Source: Halobacteriales archaeon QS_8_69_26
GTDB lineage: Archaea > Halobacteriota > Halobacteria > Halobacteriales > SW-7-71-33
NCBI GenBank assembly: GCA_003023195.1
Contig: PXRX01000027.1
Coordinates: forward strand, 34,480 to 98,479
Reading direction: 5' to 3'
DNA length: 64,000 nucleotides
The notes beneath the pieces were generated by a model that made no database searches, was not told the origin of the DNA, and saw only the letters and a program-made list of their open reading frames with translations. The number at the start of each line of letters is the position of its first letter. The first letter of the stretch is position 1. The position numbers were made by a program, and so were the translations under genes. Below are positions 7,510-61,133 of the stretch, piece after piece.

Positions 7510-7895
7510 CGGGAGGCGCTACTCGACGCACTCGAACATGGCGACACCTCCGGACCGAAGTACTCCTCCCACCGGTCGTCGCGCCAGTGGAGCACCCCCC
7601 AGGCGGTCGGGTCGACGGTTATCGATCCGCCGCCCCCGTTGACCGGCGTGAACTCGATTCCATCCCCACCGTCGCACTCGACCGACTGGCTGGAGGGCTC
7701 CAGGTGCACGTCACTCCCGGCCTCGTGGTAGCACACCGACCCCTCGACGCCGGATCTGGCACCGCTTCCGACGGTCGGACAGGGAACGTCGTCGAACCTG
7801 GAATTACCGGAACTGGGCGTCAGCGAGGGAGTCATGCATCCGGCGAGGCCGGCGATGGCGGCACCGGAGAGCGTCAGGCAGGTTCGACGTCTCAT
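7506..7895 (-). CDS. hypothetical lipoprotein
   Basis: MRRRTCLTLSGAAIAGLAGCMTPS lipobox LAGC. Confidence 0.7.
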   Translation of the reverse strand: MRRRTCLTLSGAAIAGLAGCMTPSLTPSSGNSRFDDVPCPTVGSGARSGVEGSVCYHEAGSDVHLEPSSQSVECDGGDGIEFTPVNGGGGSITVDPTAWGVLHWRDDRWEEYFGPEVSPCSSASSSASR

Positions 7896-7902
7896 GCGTG
7901 CT

Positions 7903-7922
7903 TTACCGTAATTTTACTGTAA
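7903..7922. promoter_or_regulatory. 20-bp palindrome copy 2 (TTACCGTAATTTTACTGTAA)
   Basis: 7 bp upstream of the lipoprotein start at 7895. Confidence 0.75.
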
Positions 7923-7975
7923 ACATGTACCGGGGGCGAGTTCCGCGAACGACCGTCGTCGGTGGGGCCGGCGTC

Positions 7976-8242
7976 CTACACCCCCTCGACCGTCTCCCGG
8001 TAGGCGTGGATGTGCGAGAGGGCCTCGTTGACGTTGTCGGCGACCGCCGCGCCTTCCCCGTCGGCCAGGTCGTGGAGTTTGCTCTCGTGGCGGGCCATCC
8101 GCCCGTGGTCGGGGTTCCGGTCGGCCAGGCCCTCGATCGCGTCGGCCTGTTCGTGGAGCCGTCCGACGATCCGCTCCCCGGTGGCCGCGTCGGCGGCCGC
8201 ACGGATCGACTCGGCCGCCCTGACCAGACTCTCGTGTGTCAT
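7976..8242 (-). CDS. conserved haloarchaeal hypothetical protein
   Basis: MTHESLVRAAESIRAAADAATGERIVGRLHEQADAIEGLADRNPDHGRMARHESKLHDLADGEG. Confidence 0.7.
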   Translation of the reverse strand: MTHESLVRAAESIRAAADAATGERIVGRLHEQADAIEGLADRNPDHGRMARHESKLHDLADGEGAAVADNVNEALSHIHAYRETVEGV

Positions 8243-8440
8243 GTGCGGGGGTACAGCACCGTGGGGCTTGTGCGTTGTGCTGTCGGGGGTCTTCGAAGGC
8301 ATCAACTTTAGGAGAGCGGTAGCAGGACTACCCGGATGACGCCCCCGAAAGCCCCCGCCCCGCTCCGGTCGAGGGGTTCGCTGCGCTCCTCGCTCGCTCC
8401 GCTCGCTGTGGTGCTCGTGTCACCCGTCGTCCCGGAGCGG

Positions 8441-8590
8441 GACGGCCCCTTTCAGTCCGCCCATACTGGGACCTCTCCCTCCCCAACCGACTGCGCTTCT
8501 CGTCCCCTCCCTACGGTCGGGGCTGCGATGCTCGCCCCTCGCACGAGGCCGCGCCTGGCGGCGCGGCCCGCGCGCCGAGTGGCAGATCCC
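8441..8590 (-). repeat. dispersed intergenic structured element, copy B1 (minus orientation)
   Basis: reverse complement contains GGACTGAAAGGGGCCG and GACCGTAGGGA motifs shared with copies at 24.4-24.6, 40.2-40.4 and 48.7-49.0 kb. Confidence 0.55.
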
Positions 8591-8755
8591 GCTGAACTTG
8601 ACACTCCCTGGTGGTGCAACCCGCAGTGGATCGATCCCGGTGACGCAGCGATCGAGGGAGACCGGACCAGTCGGGGACCGTGACCGGCGGGAGCCACCGA
8701 GTCGTTGGCCGGAGCCGGTGCGCCCAAGGCGGTAGAGTGGGTACCCGCACGGCGG

Positions 8756-10000
8756 ATGGTCCCGCCCATCGACCGATTCGGCGGCTACGACCGGCCGGTC
8801 TACCTCGTGGCGGTGGCCCGGTTCGTCAACACGTTCGGCAGCGGCGTCGTCTACCCGTTCGCGACGCTGTACTTCGTCCGGGTGGTGGGGATCCCGTTCA
8901 CCCTGGTCGGGACCGGGCTGTTCGCCAACAACGTCGCCCTCGCGACGGGGACCCTGCTCGGCGGGTACCTCTCGGACCGGTACGGCCGCAAGCCGGTGAT
9001 GGTCGCGAGCATGGCCCTGTCCGCGCCCGCGCTGGCGGCCTACGCTCTCGTCTCGACTGCCGCGGGGTTCGTCGCGGTGGCGTCCGCGGCGGGGCTGGCG
9101 ATGGGGCTGTTCGCCCCCGCGGCCCAGGCGACGGTCGCCGACGCCACCGACAGCGAGGCCCGCGAGGGGGCCTACGGGCTGTTGAAGGTCGCCTCCAACG
9201 CCGGCTTCGGGTCCGGGTTCGTCGCCGGTGGCCTCCTCTACTCGGTCGCCAACGTCGCGGTCTTCGTCGTCGACGGCGCCACCTCGGCCGCCGTGGCGCT
9301 GGCGCTGCTGGTCGGCCTGCCGGCGATCCACGGCGGGCGCGAGGCCGCGACGACCGTCCGGGGCACCCTCGCCGAGTGGCGGCGGGCGGTCGCCGACCGG
9401 ACGGTGCTGGCGCTCGCGCTGTTGAACGTCGGCTTCGCCGTGATGTACGCCCAGATGCAGTCGACCGTCCCGGTGTTCGCCGAGGGACGGCTCGGCCTCA
9501 CGAGCGCCCAGCTCGGGACACTCTACGTCCTCAACCCCCTGGTGATCGTCGTCTTCCAGTTGCCGGTCGTCGCGGCGGTCCGGCGGCGCTCCTGGCGGCG
9601 CACCCGGGGGCTGGTCGTCTCGGCGGGGCTGTGGGGTGCGAGCTTCGTCGCGCTCCTGGGGGTGTTCCGCGCGCCCCGACTGCTGGGGATCGGGCTCGTG
9701 GGCGCGTTCCTCGTACTCCGCACCTTCGGCGAGGTGTTGCACTCGCCGCTGATCACTGCCCTCACCAGCGACGTCGGCACCGTCGACACCCGGGGGTCAC
9801 AGCTGTCGGTCCTGGAGGTCGCCAAGCGCCTGGGCTTCGGTATCGGACCGGTGATCGGCGGCGCCTTCTTCGACCTGGGCGAGGTCGGCCTGCTCTGGGC
9901 GGTGTTGCTGGTCGGCTGTCTCGTCCTCGGGGCGGGCCTCCTGGCACTCGAACGGTCGATCCCCGCCGGGATCAACGGGCGACCGGCGGCCGCGGACTGA
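8756..10000 (+). CDS. MFS transporter
   Basis: VGTGLFANNVALATGTLLGGYLSDRYGRKPVMVASM MFS A-motif; 12 TM-like. Confidence 0.88.
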   Translation: MVPPIDRFGGYDRPVYLVAVARFVNTFGSGVVYPFATLYFVRVVGIPFTLVGTGLFANNVALATGTLLGGYLSDRYGRKPVMVASMALSAPALAAYALVSTAAGFVAVASAAGLAMGLFAPAAQATVADATDSEAREGAYGLLKVASNAGFGSGFVAGGLLYSVANVAVFVVDGATSAAVALALLVGLPAIHGGREAATTVRGTLAEWRRAVADRTVLALALLNVGFAVMYAQMQSTVPVFAEGRLGLTSAQLGTLYVLNPLVIVVFQLPVVAAVRRRSWRRTRGLVVSAGLWGASFVALLGVFRAPRLLGIGLVGAFLVLRTFGEVLHSPLITALTSDVGTVDTRGSQLSVLEVAKRLGFGIGPVIGGAFFDLGEVGLLWAVLLVGCLVLGAGLLALERSIPAGINGRPAAAD

Positions 10001-10063
10001 CCGCTGGCTCCGGGCGGCGACCCGCGAGCAACCGCGGATCGACCGGGCGGTCGGCGTCGAACC

Positions 10064-10150
10064 GGGCGCTACGAGAACGGCGTCCTCGAGGTCGGTTTCC
10101 CCGTGGAGACCGCCGTCACGCGCGGCACCTCCATCGACATCGAGGGCTGA
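10064..10150 (+). pseudogene. possible C-terminal remnant of an Hsp20/alpha-crystallin gene
   Basis: GRYENGVLEVGFPVETAVTRGTSIDIEG* resembles the Hsp20 C-terminus (YENGVLxVxxPV); no upstream Hsp20 ORF. Confidence 0.45.
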
Positions 10151-10311
10151 TCCACCGTCATGGCCACTGATCGTCGCTGCCACCGATTCCCCGCCCTGTC
10201 CCCGCGTTTCCGTGCGGGGCGTCTCCGACGCCCCATCCCGTACCATCCGTCCGCTCCCGGGCGTGTCAACCCGGGAGCGCCGTTCGAATGCCTGCCCCAT
10301 CCGCCGCCCGG

Positions 10312-11334
10312 TCAGGTCCCTGGTATCACGTTCGTGACGCTGATCGTCTCGAGCACCATCCAGGCGACGAAGAGGACGTAGACCACCAGTAAGGTGTAGG
10401 ACTCGAGGAGCGAGAGCTTCAGGCCCGTCCGGAGGAACGCGAAGACGACGATAGTCGCCAGGGTCAGAAAGCCCATCAGCGGGACGGCCACCTGGAAGTT
10501 GACGGCGGCGGTGCCGGCGATGAGGACACCCGCGGGGATCGCGACCAGCAGGTCGAAGGTGTTGCTCCCGAGGACGTTGGCGATGGAGGCGACCCCCCGC
10601 TCGTCCTGTGCGGCCCGGAGGCTGACGATGGCGTCGGGCAGCGAGGTGCCGGCGGCCACGATGGTCACCCCCCACAGGAACGACGAGGTGCCGAAGAGGT
10701 CCCGGAAGCCGAGCGCCGCGTCGACGAGGCCCTCGACGGCGATGGCGATGACCACCAGGCTCACGAGGAGCAGGCCCCACTGCTTGCCCGGGGAGACGTC
10801 GGGCGGTTCCGCCTCGGCCTCGTGGTCGGCGACGTCCGCGTACTGGATGAAGACGTACACCCCGTAGAGCAACACCGGCACGGCCGCGAGCGGCCGGGTG
10901 ACGTTGCCCCGTAGCGCATCGCCGTCGGTCGGGTTGTAGATCACCGCCATCGCGAAGACGATGATCAGCGCCGAGACGGCGACCATGTAGAACTGGGCCT
11001 CCTTGTAGACGATGTCGCGGTTGGACTCTATCTCGTCGCCCACGATCCCCGACAGCGCCGGGATCACCAGCAGGTTGAAGATGGCCGACCCGACGATGGC
11101 ACCCACCCCGAGGTCGAACTCGCCGTGGAGCAGGGTGGCGACCACGGTGGTCGACAGTTCCGGGAACGACGACCCCAGGGCGGCGATGAGCGCCCCCTGG
11201 ACCACCAGCGGCAGGCCGTAGTACGACGCCAGTTTGTCGCTGGTCTTCTCGAGCGTCTCGCCTCCCCACCAGATGAACGCCGTCGATACGAGCGCCAGCC
11301 CCGACAGTTCCGCCACGTGCAGTGCGCTCACCAT
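10312..11334 (-). CDS. sodium/calcium exchanger family (CaCA) protein
   Basis: GGETLEKTSDKLASYYGLPLVVQGALIAALGSSFPELSTTVVATLLHGEFDLGVGAIVGSAIFN and repeat WGVTIVAAGTSLPDAIVS. Confidence 0.9.
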   Translation of the reverse strand: MVSALHVAELSGLALVSTAFIWWGGETLEKTSDKLASYYGLPLVVQGALIAALGSSFPELSTTVVATLLHGEFDLGVGAIVGSAIFNLLVIPALSGIVGDEIESNRDIVYKEAQFYMVAVSALIIVFAMAVIYNPTDGDALRGNVTRPLAAVPVLLYGVYVFIQYADVADHEAEAEPPDVSPGKQWGLLLVSLVVIAIAVEGLVDAALGFRDLFGTSSFLWGVTIVAAGTSLPDAIVSLRAAQDERGVASIANVLGSNTFDLLVAIPAGVLIAGTAAVNFQVAVPLMGFLTLATIVVFAFLRTGLKLSLLESYTLLVVYVLFVAWMVLETISVTNVIPGT

Positions 11335-54545: not shown

Positions 54546-55868
54546 ATGACGGACACCACCGACGACGCACTGGAATCGAGCGATCCGAACGACCACCCGA
54601 CCGATCCGGACGAACACAGCGACAGTGATTACGACGACGGGACGACCGATCCCGGCGACACCCGCGAAACGACCGATCCCGGCGACACCCGCGAAACGAC
54701 CGATCCCGGGGACACCGGAGAGGCGATGGTCACGCCCTACGCCGTCGAGGGGGAGGTCGACTACGACCGACTCCTGGCGGAGTTCGGCGCGGATCCGCTG
54801 ACCGACGACCAGGCCGACCGCTTCCCAGACACGCCCCTGGTCCGCCGGCGGATATTCTACGCCGGGCGGGACGTGGACCGCTACCTCGACGCCGCCGCGG
54901 CCGGTCGGCCCCACTCGATCGTCACGGGTCGGGGTCCGTCCGGGCCGATGCACCTCGGGCACGTCCTGCCGTTCTACTTCGCGAAGCGCCTCCAGGACGC
55001 GACGGGGGCGACCGTCTACGTCCCCCTCTCGGACGACGAGAAGTACTTCGCGAAGGACCTCTCGTTCGAGGCCGTCGGGGCGGCCGCACGGGAGAACCTC
55101 CGGGACCTCCTGGCAGTGGGGTTCGACCCCGAACGAACGCGGTTCGTCGTCGACACCGCCGACGCCGACGTCGTCTACCCCGTCGCCGCCCGGGTTGCGA
55201 AGTACCTCACCCCGGCGACCGTCGAAGCCACCTACGGCGACCCGCCCAACGTCGGTCTGGGCTTCTACCCGGCGGTGCAGGCGACCCACCTCCTGCTCCC
55301 GCAACTCGTTGACGGCGAGCACCCGACGCTCGTTCCGACCGCCGTCGACCAGGACCCCCACGTCCGGGTCTGCCGGGACGTCGCCGGCACCGAACACCTC
55401 CCGGTCTCCAAACCCGGCGCCTTGCTCGGGAAGTTCTTCCCCGGCCCGTCCGGCCCCGGGAAGATGTCGACCAGCGACGACGCCCCGTCGATCCTGCTGA
55501 CCGACGACCCCGAAACGGTCGAGCGGAAGGTCCGAACGCACGCCTACTCCGGCGGCCGGACCGACCTGGCGGCCCACCGCGAACACGGCGGGGACCCGAC
55601 GGTCGACGTGGCCTTCCAGTTCCTCCGCTTTTTCTTCGAACCCGACGACGACGAACTCGACCGGATCGCCCGCGAGTACCGCGACGGGTCGCTGCTCTCG
55701 GGCGAGATGAAGGGCCTGGCGATAGACCGGATCACCGAGTTCCTGGCCGACCACCAGCGGCGACGGGCGGCGCTGGGTGACCTCGAGGAGGAACTCGACC
55801 CCTTCCGCCTGACCGACGGGGAGCGATCCCGGGCGCTCCGGCGGTCCGGGGTGCCGTCGATCCCCTGA
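54546..55868 (+). CDS. trpS: tryptophan--tRNA ligase (start may instead be ATG 54726)
   Basis: GRGPSGPMHLGHVLPFYFAK (HIGH), GPGKMSTSDDAPSILL (KMSKS). Confidence 0.92.
   Translation: MTDTTDDALESSDPNDHPTDPDEHSDSDYDDGTTDPGDTRETTDPGDTRETTDPGDTGEAMVTPYAVEGEVDYDRLLAEFGADPLTDDQADRFPDTPLVRRRIFYAGRDVDRYLDAAAAGRPHSIVTGRGPSGPMHLGHVLPFYFAKRLQDATGATVYVPLSDDEKYFAKDLSFEAVGAAARENLRDLLAVGFDPERTRFVVDTADADVVYPVAARVAKYLTPATVEATYGDPPNVGLGFYPAVQATHLLLPQLVDGEHPTLVPTAVDQDPHVRVCRDVAGTEHLPVSKPGALLGKFFPGPSGPGKMSTSDDAPSILLTDDPETVERKVRTHAYSGGRTDLAAHREHGGDPTVDVAFQFLRFFFEPDDDELDRIAREYRDGSLLSGEMKGLAIDRITEFLADHQRRRAALGDLEEELDPFRLTDGERSRALRRSGVPSIP
54642..54722 (+). repeat. 27-bp in-frame tandem repeat x3 in the trpS N-terminal extension
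   Basis: encodes TTDPGDTRE repeated. Confidence 0.9.
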
Positions 55869-55925: not shown

Positions 55926-56729
55926 TCACCCGCCCGAACCGCTCCCCCGGATCAGCCGTTCGGCCCGGTCGCGGTCCTCGGGGTAGTCGACGGCCACCCG
56001 CCACCCCTCGAAGCGGACGGCCTGGACCCGGTGGCCGGTCCGGAGCAGCCACGTTATCGCGTCCGGGAGTTCGTACTCGCCACGGTCGGAGGGGTCGATG
56101 GCCCGGCAGGCGTCGAAGACCGACGGCGAGAAGCCGTGGAGGCCGGTGATGGCCAGCGTCGACGGCGGGTCGTCGGGCTTCTCGACGATGCGGTCGATCC
56201 GGTCGCCGTCGAGGCGGTCGATCCGGTCGGCGTCGAGGCGGTCGATCCGGTCGCCGTCTGTGTCGGCGACGACGTTACCGTCACCGGCGGGGACGACGAC
56301 CCCCGTCTCCCGGGCCCGCTCGCGGGACACCCCCTCGACGGTGAGGACGGCGTCGGCGCCGTCACGGAGCAGGCGGGGAACCGCCGAGAGGTCCGCCGCC
56401 GGGTCGAACACGTTGTCGCCGTGGAGGTAGGGGAAGGGGCCGTCGACGTACTCCTCGGCGCACGCCAGCGCGTGGGCCACCCCCAGGCGCTCGTCCTGGG
56501 TGGCGTAGCGCACCGGGACCCCGCGGTAGGCGTCGCCGTAGCGCTCCCGTATCCGGTCGCCCAGGTAGCCGACCACGACGACGAGTTCGTCGACGCCCGC
56601 GTCGAGGAGCCGGTCGAAACACCACGAGCAGATCGGTCGGCCGTCGACCGTGACCAGCGCCTTCGGGCGGTCGGCGGTCAGGGGACGGAGCCGGGTTCCC
56701 TCGCCGGCCGCGAGTACGACGCCCTGCAC
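55926..56729 (-). CDS. sugar-1-phosphate nucleotidyltransferase (AglF-like)
   Basis: MQGVVLAAGEGTRLRPLTADRPKALVTVDGRPI. Confidence 0.9.
   Translation of the reverse strand: MQGVVLAAGEGTRLRPLTADRPKALVTVDGRPICSWCFDRLLDAGVDELVVVVGYLGDRIRERYGDAYRGVPVRYATQDERLGVAHALACAEEYVDGPFPYLHGDNVFDPAADLSAVPRLLRDGADAVLTVEGVSRERARETGVVVPAGDGNVVADTDGDRIDRLDADRIDRLDGDRIDRIVEKPDDPPSTLAITGLHGFSPSVFDACRAIDPSDRGEYELPDAITWLLRTGHRVQAVRFEGWRVAVDYPEDRDRAERLIRGSGSGG
56190..56258. repeat. 24-bp in-frame tandem repeat (~3 copies) inside the nucleotidyltransferase gene
   Basis: gcggtcgatccggtcgScgtcgag; encodes DRIDRLDA/G. Confidence 0.88.
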
Positions 56730-56802: not shown

Positions 56803-58119
56803 TCACCGGATCCCGGGACCCCGGAGTGCCGGGCGGATCCGCCGGTCCTCTATGGTCTCGACGTAGTGCTCGTACTGCAGGACCGTCATCGTCTCCCCCT
56901 GGAGGCGTTCGAGGCGGCCGGGGTCGGTGATGGTCACGACGACGGTGCCGTTCTCGGGGTGGACCGTGCTGTCGAGCGGGTTCAGGAGCGGCCGGTCCCG
57001 GTCGTCCCAGACGACCGTCAGCGCCGACTCGTTGCCCCCGGGGACCTCGTCCTCGCTGTAGTGGAACACGACCCGGACCCGCTGGACGTCCTCGGCGGCG
57101 AGCCAGTAGACCCTGACCAGACCGCCCACCCGCGACTGGTTGAGGAAGTCGTTGCGGTAGACCGGGTTCTCGTTGATCTGTGGGCCGAGTGCCCGGCTCT
57201 CGTCCAGGCTGTGTCGCCGCGCGGTGACGTACTGGTCGACCCGGCCGTCGGGTGCCTCGACGGTGAACCGCTCGGTGGCCAGGTCGTTCGGGTCCGGCCG
57301 GGCGGCCTTCTGCCGGGCCTGGGCGACCCACTCCGGTTCCTCGACCGACGTCTCGCCGGCCGCCTCGTACCGGACCCGCTGGTCGACGGCGACGGTCTGC
57401 CCGTCCGTGGTGAAGTTGACCGACAGTTCGCCGTACTTCACCCGACCCTCCGCGGAGAGGACGACGACCAGGCGGTAGGCGTGGAGGTTCTCGCGGGTGG
57501 TGTTGAGCGCCTCGACCAGCCCCGGACGCGCCGTCTCGACCCCCTCGGCCTCGTAGACGTACCCCTCGACGCCCCCGCGGGTCGCCCGCCCTTCGTAGGT
57601 GAGGTCGGTCAGGTTCGCGAACTCGACCACCGACGGCCGGACGAGGTCCGTGACGTTCGGGGCCGGTGCCCGATCCCCGGCCAGGTACGTGGTCTTCCCG
57701 GTCGAGAGGACCTGTCGCGCGTAGGCGGTCCCGTTGGGCGCGAGGTACGTCGTCGCCGACCCCCCGACCGTCCCGTTGCGACGCACCAGCGCCGCGCCCG
57801 AGTCCAGGTCTATCTGGGCGACCCGGCTGGACTCGATCGTATCGACGGCACTGTCGGACTCGATCGTCCGTTCGGTTCGGACCGTGACGCTCCCGGCGTT
57901 CCGGACGGCCGCCAGGTGCGCGTCACGGACCGCGTCGGCGTCGAACGGCGGCGCGACGGCGTCGGAGGGCTCGCCGTCGGAAGTGGTTCCCGGTTCCGCC
58001 GTTCCCTCGTCGCTCGTCGTCGTCTCTCCACCCTCCGCCGTCGTTCCCGGTCCGTCGGCCGTCGTCCCGGGATCGGTCGTCCCGTCCGTCGGGTCGTCCT
58101 CCAGACCGCCGAGACACCC
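56803..58119 (-). pseudogene. 3' portion of a haloarchaeal lipoprotein gene split by insertion (5' piece at 59582-59647)
   Basis: mature lipoprotein begins G|CLGGLEDDPTDGTTDPGTTADG; signal peptide missing here. Confidence 0.8.
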
Positions 58120-58151
58120 GGGGGTGGCGTGTTGGAAACCGGGTTCCAGCA

Positions 58152-58312
58152 AGTCTGAGGCCATCCGCGACGCGCTGCGCGACTGGGTGAACCCACCGGT
58201 GACGCTTTCCGAGGAGACCCTCGCCGACCTCGAAGAGAGCCGGAAGCAGATCGAGCGGGGCGAGACGATACCGTTGGAAGAGGCCTGTGAACGACTGGGA
58301 ATCGAGGATTAA
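58152..58312 (+). pseudogene. 5'-truncated antitoxin-like (CopG/RHH-type) fragment
   Basis: SKSEAIRDALRDWVNPPVTLSEETLADLEESRKQIERGETIPLEEACERLGIED* with no plausible start. Confidence 0.55.
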
Positions 58313-58374
58313 CCGCCCCTTTCACCGCCACATGCGGCGCAACATGTATCACGTGCGAGCCTGTACCGTCGAGT

Positions 58375-58644
58375 ATGGCAACCGAAGAAGCTCCCGAGGA
58401 AACGAAGGTCAGCGACCGGGGAATGGTCACGATCCCGGCGTCGCTCCGCCGACGTCTCGACATCGAGGCCGGCGACAAACTCCGCTGGGACACAGACGAA
58501 GAGGGGAACCTCTCTGTGGAGGTCGTCAAGCAGCGCTACGGCGCTTTCGACGACTTCGAGCCAGTCCCGATGGGTGGCGGCGGGTCTGAAAACCACGACC
58601 TCGCAGGTCACGAGGAAGACCCTGTCTTCTCGGAGAACAACTGA
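58375..58644 (+). CDS. AbrB/MazE-type antitoxin
   Basis: TKVSDRGMVTIPASLRRRLDIEAGDKLRWDTDEEGNLSVEVV. Confidence 0.88.
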   Translation: MATEEAPEETKVSDRGMVTIPASLRRRLDIEAGDKLRWDTDEEGNLSVEVVKQRYGAFDDFEPVPMGGGGSENHDLAGHEEDPVFSENN

Positions 58645-59072
58645 TGGCGGTCGCAGTGGTCGATACAGGCGTTCTAGTCGGGATGGCCGATGCTGACGAC
58701 GAACACCACGATGTCGCTATGGAGATCGTCCGAGGGATGGACCACGGTGATCTTCCGACAGCCCGGGTGACGAACTACATCGCCCTCGAAGCCCTCAACT
58801 GGATACACAACCGGAAGCGCCACGAGAAGGCCGTAGAGACGTACGAGCGGCTGAATCAGTCTGCTGGTTTTGAGGTACTCCACGCGGCCCAGAAGGACTT
58901 CACCAACGCCGTGAAGCTCTTCCGAACTTACGAGGGGCTGTCCTTCGGTGACGCGACCATTGCTGCATACATGGAGCGGGAAGGGATCGAATACCTCTAT
59001 TCGTTTGATGATGACTTCGACGCGATCAAGGGCATCACCCGGCTGGAGACGCCGGACAATCCCTTTAGCTGA
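58644..59072 (+). CDS. PIN-domain toxin (VapC-like)
   Basis: MAVAVVDTGVLVGMADADDEHHDVA...LSFGDATIAAYMEREGIEYLYSFDDDFDAIKGITRL; overlaps the antitoxin stop (TGATG). Confidence 0.9.
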   Translation: MAVAVVDTGVLVGMADADDEHHDVAMEIVRGMDHGDLPTARVTNYIALEALNWIHNRKRHEKAVETYERLNQSAGFEVLHAAQKDFTNAVKLFRTYEGLSFGDATIAAYMEREGIEYLYSFDDDFDAIKGITRLETPDNPFS

Positions 59073-59074
59073 CC

Positions 59075-59527
59075 ATGGCGGAACCCGACGACACTGAGAA
59101 CGGCCCGGAGAGCCGAGAACCGTTACATACTGGTACTATCGAGGAGGGCTACGTATACGTTCCGCGCCAGATCATCAAGGAACTCGACCTCGAAGACGAC
59201 GGTCTCGTCCGGTGGTACCTCACAGACGACGGAGAGGTGAGCATCGAGTTCGACCACCAGCCCTCTGGCGTCTTCGACGGTGACGAGATGACGGCACCGA
59301 TGGGTAATGACGGTCAGGAAGCCCACGACCTCGCCGGTGCAGAGCGCTCAGAAGACATCGAAGAGCGGGACTTCTCCGCGGGCTTCGGTCGCTGGAAGGA
59401 CAAAGACACCGACCACCTGTATAGGGAGTGCCCCATCTGCGGGAGTGAGGTCTACCGCGGGAAGGTGGGCGGCCACCTCGACAAGCACTGGGACGAGATC
59501 GTGGAACTCGTGCAGAAGTCGGAATAG
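59075..59527 (+). CDS. AbrB-like domain fused to a C2H2-type zinc finger
   Basis: EEGYVYVPRQIIKELDLEDDGLVRWYLTDDGEVSIEF...APMGNDGQEAHDLAG...CPICGSEVYRGKVGGHLDKHWDEIV. Confidence 0.75.
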   Translation: MAEPDDTENGPESREPLHTGTIEEGYVYVPRQIIKELDLEDDGLVRWYLTDDGEVSIEFDHQPSGVFDGDEMTAPMGNDGQEAHDLAGAERSEDIEERDFSAGFGRWKDKDTDHLYRECPICGSEVYRGKVGGHLDKHWDEIVELVQKSE

Positions 59528-59581
59528 GCCGATTCGCCCGATATCGCTAGTCTGGAAGGGCGTTCTCCGGGGTTCAACCCC

Positions 59582-59647
59582 AGCGGTCACGACCAGCACG
59601 ACCAGTACGGCGACCGCGATCGAACCCGTCGGCGTTCGCCACGACAT
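59582..59647 (-). pseudogene. severed 5' end (signal peptide) of the lipoprotein gene at 56803-58119
   Basis: ATG at 59647: MSWRTPTGSIAVAVLVVLVVTA(G), then runs into unrelated sequence. Confidence 0.75.
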
Positions 59648-59682
59648 CGATCCCACCGACGCGGGAGCGGGACAGATACTCC

Positions 59683-59800
59683 GGTGATCGTCACCGGAAG
59701 ATGCGAAACGGGTTCCCCGGTGATCGCCACCGGAACGGAGTGAAGCTGTCCCCAGGTGATCGCCACCGGAACGGGGTGAAACGCGTTCCCCGGCGATCGA
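59683..59800. repeat. ~36-bp tandem repeat, 3+ copies, each with a CGGTGatcgcCACCG dyad
   Basis: units at 59683, 59719, 59755. Confidence 0.88.
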
Positions 59801-59846
59801 CCGGGGACCCGAAGCCTGAAGCGACCCGGCCACCACGTCGACACCG

Positions 59847-61133
59847 ATGAACGTCACCGTCGTCGGGAGCGGCTACGTCGGGACGACTGTCGCGGCCTGT
59901 CTCGCCGACGCGGGCCACGCCGTGACCGCGGTCGACGTCGACGAGGAGATCGTCGCGGCCCTCGAAGCGGGAGAGACGCCGGTCGCCGAACCCGGGCTTG
60001 CCGGCCCGGTCGCCGACCACGCCGGCGACCGACTCCGGGCCGCGACCGACTACGGGTCGGTCGCCGAGGCCGACGTGGTACTGCTGGCGCTCCCGACCCC
60101 CTCCGAGGCGGACGGGAGCATCGACACCGAGTACGTCGAGAGCGGGGCGGAGTCCGTCGGCGAGGCGATGGCGGGGTCGGCCGACGGGCAGGTAATCGCG
60201 GTCAAGTCCACCGTGGTCCCCGGCACCACCGACGAGACGGTCGCGCCGCTGATAGCGCAGGCCGCCGACGCCGAGGTCGGCGAGGACTTCCACGTCGCGG
60301 CCAACCCCGAGTTCCTCCGGATGGGCACCGCCGTCTCTGACTTCCGGGACCCACAGAAGGTGGTGATCGGCACCGACTCGCCGGTCGCCCGCGGGCGACT
60401 CCGGGAACTGTACGGCTCGGTCGCCCCCGAGGCGCCGGTCGTCGAGACGGGGACCCGCGAAGCGGAAACCATCAAGTACGCCAACAACGCCTTCCTCGCG
60501 GCGAAGGTCAGCCTGATCAACGACATCGGCAACGTCTGCAAGGAGTACGGCGTCGACGCCTACGAGGTGGCCGACGCCCTGGCGCTGGACGACCGCATTT
60601 CGGGGAAGTTCCTCCGCTCTGGGGTCGGCTGGGGGGGAAGTTGCTTCCCGAAGGACCTGGACGCCCTCCGGGCGGCCGCCCGCGAGGCCGGCTACGACCC
60701 GCCGATGCTCGACGCCGCCGTCGAGGTCAACGACCGCCAGCCCGGGCGGTTGCTCTCGCTGCTCGACCGGCACGTCGACGTCACCGGCGAACGGGTCGCC
60801 GTCCTCGGCCTGGCGTTCAAGCCCGGCACCGACGACGTCCGGGGATCCCGGGCCGTCCCCGTCATCGAGGGACTCCGGTCCCGCGGGGCCGAGGTGGTCG
60901 CCTACGACCCCGTAGCGGGTGCCGACATGCGCGAGATCCTCCCGGACCTGGAGTACGCCGACTCGGCGGCGGCCGCCCTGGAGGGCGCGGTCGGTGCGGT
61001 CGTCGTCACCGACTGGGACGAGTTCGCCGCCCTCGACGCCGAGTTCGAGGCCATGGCCGACCCCGTCGTCGTCGACGGCCGCCACGTGGTCGAACGCCGC
61101 GAGGGGATCACCTACGAGGGACTGACCTGGTAG
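59847..61133 (+). CDS. UDP-glucose/GDP-mannose dehydrogenase family (AglM-like UDP-glucose 6-dehydrogenase)
   Basis: [51 protein letters not shown]. Confidence 0.93.

Follow-up and report, generated by a model that had tools for sequence, protein, structure and literature searches.

Type II toxin-antitoxin (TA) modules are found between core genes of Escherichia coli without any vehicle, as with ccdO157 between folA and apaH and with parDE and other modules in the relA-mazG region, and how TA systems move and integrate has been described as unelucidated (PMC7167474). When analyzing a 64,000-nucleotide stretch of the genome of Halobacteriales archaeon QS_8_69_26 (the whole stretch is called the window here), we found an insertion of a similar kind. 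The genome (G000) is in 46 contigs, is 86.9% complete, and is the sole member of its genus among the genomes compared. As in the E. coli cases, there is a small TA operon in a TA-sized insert, there is no recombinase, and relatives have empty sites, which are congeneric for three other hosts of the operon (G225, G200, and G394). The window's copy differs from the E. coli modules in being archaeal, in breaking a protein-coding gene, and in forming a 1.46-kb mosaic that also carries a truncated second antitoxin gene and an open reading frame (ORF) for an AbrB-zinc-finger protein. We regard it as an archaeal vehicle-less TA insertion, unusual in that it breaks a gene; it has not turned out to be a demonstrable transposable element, and no good evidence was found for transposon-like ends. 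The features of the locus are as follows.

55926 to 56729, minus strand: aglF-like nucleotidyltransferase gene (NF041313, 305.7 bits, under its cut-off of 400)
56803 to 58119, minus strand: mature part of the lipoprotein, DUF7537 (open frame; PF24381, E 2.1e-19), with the Cys codon at 58114-58116, coding sequence from 58116 to 56806, and the stop codon at 56803-56805
58120 to 59581, no strand: insert of 1,462 bp (its excision repairs the frame; GC drops)
58120 to 58147, no strand: left edge of about 28 bp, with no second copy in the genome, the left "inverted repeat" of an earlier note on this DNA
58148 to 58312, plus strand: 5'-truncated RHH (CopG/RelB-type) antitoxin gene, partner toxin absent (PF01402 from model position 24 of 39)
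58330 to 58349, plus strand: palindrome-like motif ACATGYGGCGCAACATGTAT, probable operator and left edge of the shared unit, with the same position in almost every locus compared
58375 to 58644, plus strand: AbrB/MazE-type antitoxin, 89 aa (PF04014, 36.8 bits; TIGR01439)
58644 to 59072, plus strand: PIN-domain (VapC-like) toxin, 142 aa (PF01850, 62.1 bits)
59075 to 59527, plus strand: ORF3, 150 aa, with an AbrB-like domain and a C-terminal zinc-finger-like tail, CxxC-x11-HxxxH, as read from the translation
59528 to 59581, no strand: non-coding right edge of 54 bp, containing the right "inverted repeat" of the earlier note (59552-59581), with no second copy or haloarchaeal match
59579 to 59647, minus strand: severed start of the lipoprotein, from the signal peptide to Gly(-1) of the lipobox (translation; aligns with the signal peptide of the homologue in genome G187)
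59847 to 61133, plus strand: aglM, UDP-glucose 6-dehydrogenase gene (NF041297, 708.9 bits, over its cut-off)

The broken gene lies on the minus strand between aglF and aglM, encodes a DUF7537 lipoprotein, and is split at its lipobox. The signal peptide MSWRTPTGSIAVAVLVVLVVTAG is encoded from 59647 to 59579, and the mature sequence starts with CLGGLEDDPTDG (CLGGLEDD...). As the earlier note had proposed, taking out the insert of about 1.46 kb fuses the two pieces in frame (...VVTAG joined to CLGG) and restores the lipobox. The mature part alone matches positions 21-258 of the 258 in PF24381 with 70.5 bits, and the rejoined protein matches positions 2-258 with 74.4 bits (E 1.4e-20). The rejoined protein of 460 aa also aligns over residues 1-451 to one unbroken gene of G187 (locus L004; 32% identity, E ~1e-45), which has its own signal peptide and a lipobox Cys in register. 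These comparisons confirm that the interruption is real and that the gene was once continuous. Signal peptide, lipobox, and DUF7537 domain stand in one frame in the rejoined gene only, not in the present-day gene. The lipoprotein is probably inactive after the insertion, since the signal peptide now reads into antisense ORF3, where no Cys follows it, and the mature part is left lacking a signal peptide; this would be a loss of function.

When we searched the relatives for an uninterrupted gene, the only intact homologue found was the distant one in G187, and no close relative had one by homology or by aglM synteny. Across 400 genomes of the order, the best lipoprotein homologue reaches 35% identity, and none of about 110 aglM loci has a significant lipoprotein match beside aglM. 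Since there is no near orthologue in these collections, we infer the ancestral uninterrupted arrangement; the window's own empty allele consists of the reconstruction and the distant intact homologue only, whereas G225, G200, and G394 have congeneric empty sites.

The GC content of the insert is about 57 to 63%, against about 70 to 75% outside, in agreement with the drop noted earlier. No transposase, integrase, or recombinase was found in the insert among the open frames or by domain profile searches, so that the description of TA-type genes only, without enzymes of that kind, also holds. There is no tRNA gene or att site in the window, no match to the PADLOC defence-system models, and no second copy of the insert in its own genome at the completeness given above. 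Because CCC stands at both junctions, the frame can be repaired in four equivalent registers (three more at shifts of -1 to -3 nt) with an identical product, which leaves the borders uncertain by 3 nt. The shared CCC may be microhomology or, equally, a 3-bp target duplication, the two being indistinguishable here.

From left to right, the insert is made up of about 28 bp, the truncated RHH gene, the palindrome-like motif, the AbrB/MazE gene, the PIN gene, ORF3, and 54 bp of non-coding DNA. Judged by these parts, it is shown to be a mosaic and not a single cassette. On haloarchaeal plasmids, the RHH homologues are complete, with about 35 to 45 extra codons at the 5' end, and in many cases the gene overlaps that of a RelE/ParE toxin. 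The fragment is up to 72% identical to the antitoxins of the RHH-RelE/ParE systems of large haloarchaeal plasmids, but it is 5' truncated and without a toxin. The left edge was also considered as degenerate RHH sequence with indels, a reading that we rejected because the alignment to RHH homologues was no better than that of shuffles. The break in the lipoprotein gene and the one in the RHH gene are distinct, lying about 28 bp apart with no recognisable RHH sequence between them; this would be expected if a short terminus had been attached to a captured gene, and just as much if the joint contained filler DNA. Since the 28 bp are not RHH derived, a short true end at the left edge is possible. 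On the other side, ORF3 directly follows the PIN gene. Its N-terminal two thirds have 35 to 40% identity to AbrB antitoxins; for its tail, and for ORF3 elsewhere, no relatives were found in the 400 genomes of the order, plasmids, and viral contigs. ORF3 may be a second antitoxin of the PIN toxin.

The AbrB/MazE-PIN operon has the features of a VapBC system with an AbrB-type antitoxin. The PIN domain carries the acidic residues (D7, E49, D103, and D122-124, read in the translation), the small AbrB/MazE gene lies immediately upstream with its end overlapped by the PIN start by one base, and the palindrome-like motif precedes both genes. It differs from known VapBC systems in that its PIN toxin is only distantly similar to the solved VapCs (VapC20, the nearest solved relative, and AF_1683) and in that a third, AbrB-like gene comes directly after. 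The motif ACATGYGGCGCAACATGTAT has one occurrence in the window and one in the genome as a whole; it is the probable operator of the TA operon, and the operon is probably autoregulated. The operon is intact and VapBC-like and, judged by its sequence and by the selection acting on it, probably functional.

Relatives of the PIN toxin with 75 to 90% amino acid identity are found in many haloarchaeal families of the order, the nearest (90%) in G225, whereas AglM of the window's genome has no counterpart elsewhere above 71% identity. This difference makes horizontal transfer of the operon among haloarchaea clear. The dN/dS values between operon copies are 0.05 to 0.16 (0.05 to 0.11 for the PIN gene), which is strong purifying selection, and the synonymous divergence is 0.4 to 1.3. 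At the nucleotide level, the window resembles the other loci over about 58321-59089 only, from the operator to the PIN stop, and comparisons among 20 larger loci show the same edges, with mostly unrelated neighbours. Of the insert's parts, only the AbrB-PIN operon (58330-59072) has close relatives and spreads between haloarchaea. We had considered the sharp homology edges as proof of a naked moving unit and dropped this argument, because at a synonymous divergence of 0.4 to 1.3 neutral flanks carried along would be hard or impossible to align, so that the edges alone prove no such unit.

The size of the transferred piece can be read from empty sites instead, and such a comparison was possible in three relatives belonging to three other genera. 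In G225, whose operon is the closest to the window's, the flanks are 811 to 821 bp apart, against 5 to 56 bp in several congeners. In G200, G123, and G326, 18 bp separate the operon from a preceding DUF456 gene, and the same DUF456 site is without the operon in G203 and G278; in G200 the flanking sequence picks up again no more than about 10 bp from the PIN stop, giving an insert of about 0.77 kb. In G394, an insert of about 0.9 kb carries the operon behind trm1, and congeneric genomes have no such insert there. No recombinase and no common ends were found in these three inserts, which are also bounded differently from the insert in the window. The empty sites argue that the operon was repeatedly acquired in pieces hardly bigger than itself. 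For these three genera, with insertions of at most about 0.77 to 0.92 kb, the comparison shows that the operon spread near-naked, in a unit of about 0.75 kb, an argument that rests on the empty sites and not on the homology edges.

Some individual loci deserve mention. In G264 (locus L117, about 7555-10657), the operon has an aglF-like nucleotidyltransferase gene on one side and a sugar epimerase gene on the other, another sugar-nucleotide cluster. In G026 (locus L110, 10867-12138, with a second copy downstream), it lies amid IS605-type TnpB genes, of which two are identical, one on each side. Elsewhere in the G394 genome, two fragments (contig C3, 14080-14168, and contig C12, 75799-75845) match the 3' end of the PIN gene only, and both stop exactly at its stop codon. 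Loci L109 and L115, from hosts of different families, both read TGATCGCCCAC just past the PIN stop; with ACCCACATG on the left, this gives a short direct repeat CCCAC flanking the operon, which is absent from the window.

For the window's insert, we moderately favor an illegitimate, microhomology-mediated joining event in which a foreign haloarchaeal TA fragment of 1.46 kb, with the intact AbrB/MazE-PIN operon inside it, was captured where the lipoprotein gene had broken. The donor would be foreign haloarchaeal DNA, probably plasmid borne, in which the operon stood 17 bp behind the RHH stop codon, much as it stands 18 bp behind the DUF456 stop codon in G200. The truncated RHH gene on the left and the AbrB-zinc-finger ORF on the right would be remnants of the donor neighbourhood. 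The fragment would have been joined into the break by microhomology-type end joining; Haloferax, which is without Ku, repairs breaks by microhomology-mediated end joining (MMEJ) (PMC7776575). In the lipobox, the cut separates Gly(-1) from Cys(+1), and the membrane lipoprotein would no longer be made as such; the lipobox position may reflect a target preference, although it is a single case. The operon would then probably be retained by addiction, with the PIN ribonuclease punishing loss, or by defence, and addiction may have fixed the insertion. Capture agrees with the RHH gene having been cut within its domain on the left side, which is what a randomly broken fragment would show, and with the CCC shared by the two junctions. 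Against it, the 3-nt microhomology may just as well be a 3-bp target duplication, chance could produce so short a match, and no donor with RHH, AbrB-PIN, and ORF3 together was found in the 400 genomes of the order, plasmids, and viral contigs. A simple one-step capture is further complicated by the 28 bp of non-RHH sequence between the breaks, which needs filler DNA or an earlier rearrangement.

The earlier note saw the insert as a small TA cassette moved in trans, with weak inverted repeats at its ends. In such a non-autonomous element, imperfect inverted repeats of about 28 to 30 bp (at 58120 and 59581) would surround captured TA genes, a transposase lost or located elsewhere would act in trans, and CCC at both junctions would be a 3-bp duplication. 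The insert does resemble MITE-like trans-mobilised elements with cargo in its lack of a transposase, its possible short end similarity, and its possible 3-bp duplication, and the non-RHH left edge is roughly as long as the proposed repeat. The similarity of 16 of 30 positions was counted correctly, in a register that repairs the gene, and random end pairs of the same spacing in this window reach at least 16 with a P of 0.008 in that one register. This P rises to roughly 0.03 over the four gene-repair registers; for seven joint slides it is 0.055 and, if each end may move by ±3 nt, 0.14. These values do not establish the repeats; GGGG tips are also cheap in 70% GC DNA. The end consensus, searched with two mismatches in the whole genome, found just the two ends and one chance-level site, haloarchaeal plasmids gave chance-level matches only, and viral contigs gave no exact match, so that the proposed search for the same ends around other cargo came back empty. 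Other insertions of the same TA operon have other ends, the window's insert has a gene truncated on its left side, and IS200/IS605-type hairpin ends were rejected, as the ends fold no more stably than shuffles (z-scores of -0.08 and -0.45). What stands of the earlier proposal is a small TA-only insert without a transposase; movement in trans by terminal repeats is rather unlikely given these unique, unshared ends, and the cassette is a mosaic with a truncated RHH gene. We consider it unlikely as well that the insert is what is left of a larger integrated plasmid, virus, or IS-bounded island that entered the lipoprotein gene and shrank by deletion to its TA genes: the RHH-RelE/ParE relatives on large haloarchaeal plasmids, a 50% identical VapC in virus SNJ1, and the IS605-type TnpB genes beside the operon in G026 would suit it, but junctions clean to within 3 nt on both sides would require strictly internal deletions, there is no integrase, replication, or att-like sequence in the insert and no tRNA gene in the window, and the inserts in the three other hosts are small. 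We think it quite improbable that the AbrB-PIN operon, from operator to PIN stop (about 0.75 kb), is a minimal mobile unit with a dedicated, unrecognised process, the window's insert being one event that brought neighbouring antitoxin pieces into a gene. Coincidence or artefact, with unrelated lipoprotein pieces or a misassembled contig, is the least credible: the genome is fragmented and incomplete and no uninterrupted close orthologue was found, but a single family model and a single intact homologue accommodate both pieces, the GC change falls on the same borders, and an accidental double misjoin giving an in-frame lipobox is very unlikely.

The AbrB-PIN operon is a natural series, one family in many haloarchaeal hosts, several of them with empty sites in close relatives that make the insert borders closely readable; the window's copy, by breaking a gene, has borders exact to nearly the base (3 nt). 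Should the borders prove to be random with microhomology, then DNA uptake, end joining, and addiction would be enough for TA spread. If they carry a common signature, this would be a new kind of small mobile element.

The window also contains repeats outside the insert. Between the severed signal peptide and aglM, at 59676-59817, there are four tandem units of about 36 bp, most with the inverted repeat CCGGTGATCGYCACCGG, an array that is possibly regulatory or REP-like. Within the aglF-like gene on the minus strand, three in-frame 24-bp tandem repeats (DRIDRLDA-type) lie at 56186-56258. Tandem repeats of 27 bp at 54642-54716 encode DPGDTRETT near the N terminus of an ORF at 54546-55868, which is aminoacyl-tRNA synthetase-like by eye, and similar in-frame repeat growth is seen elsewhere in the window.
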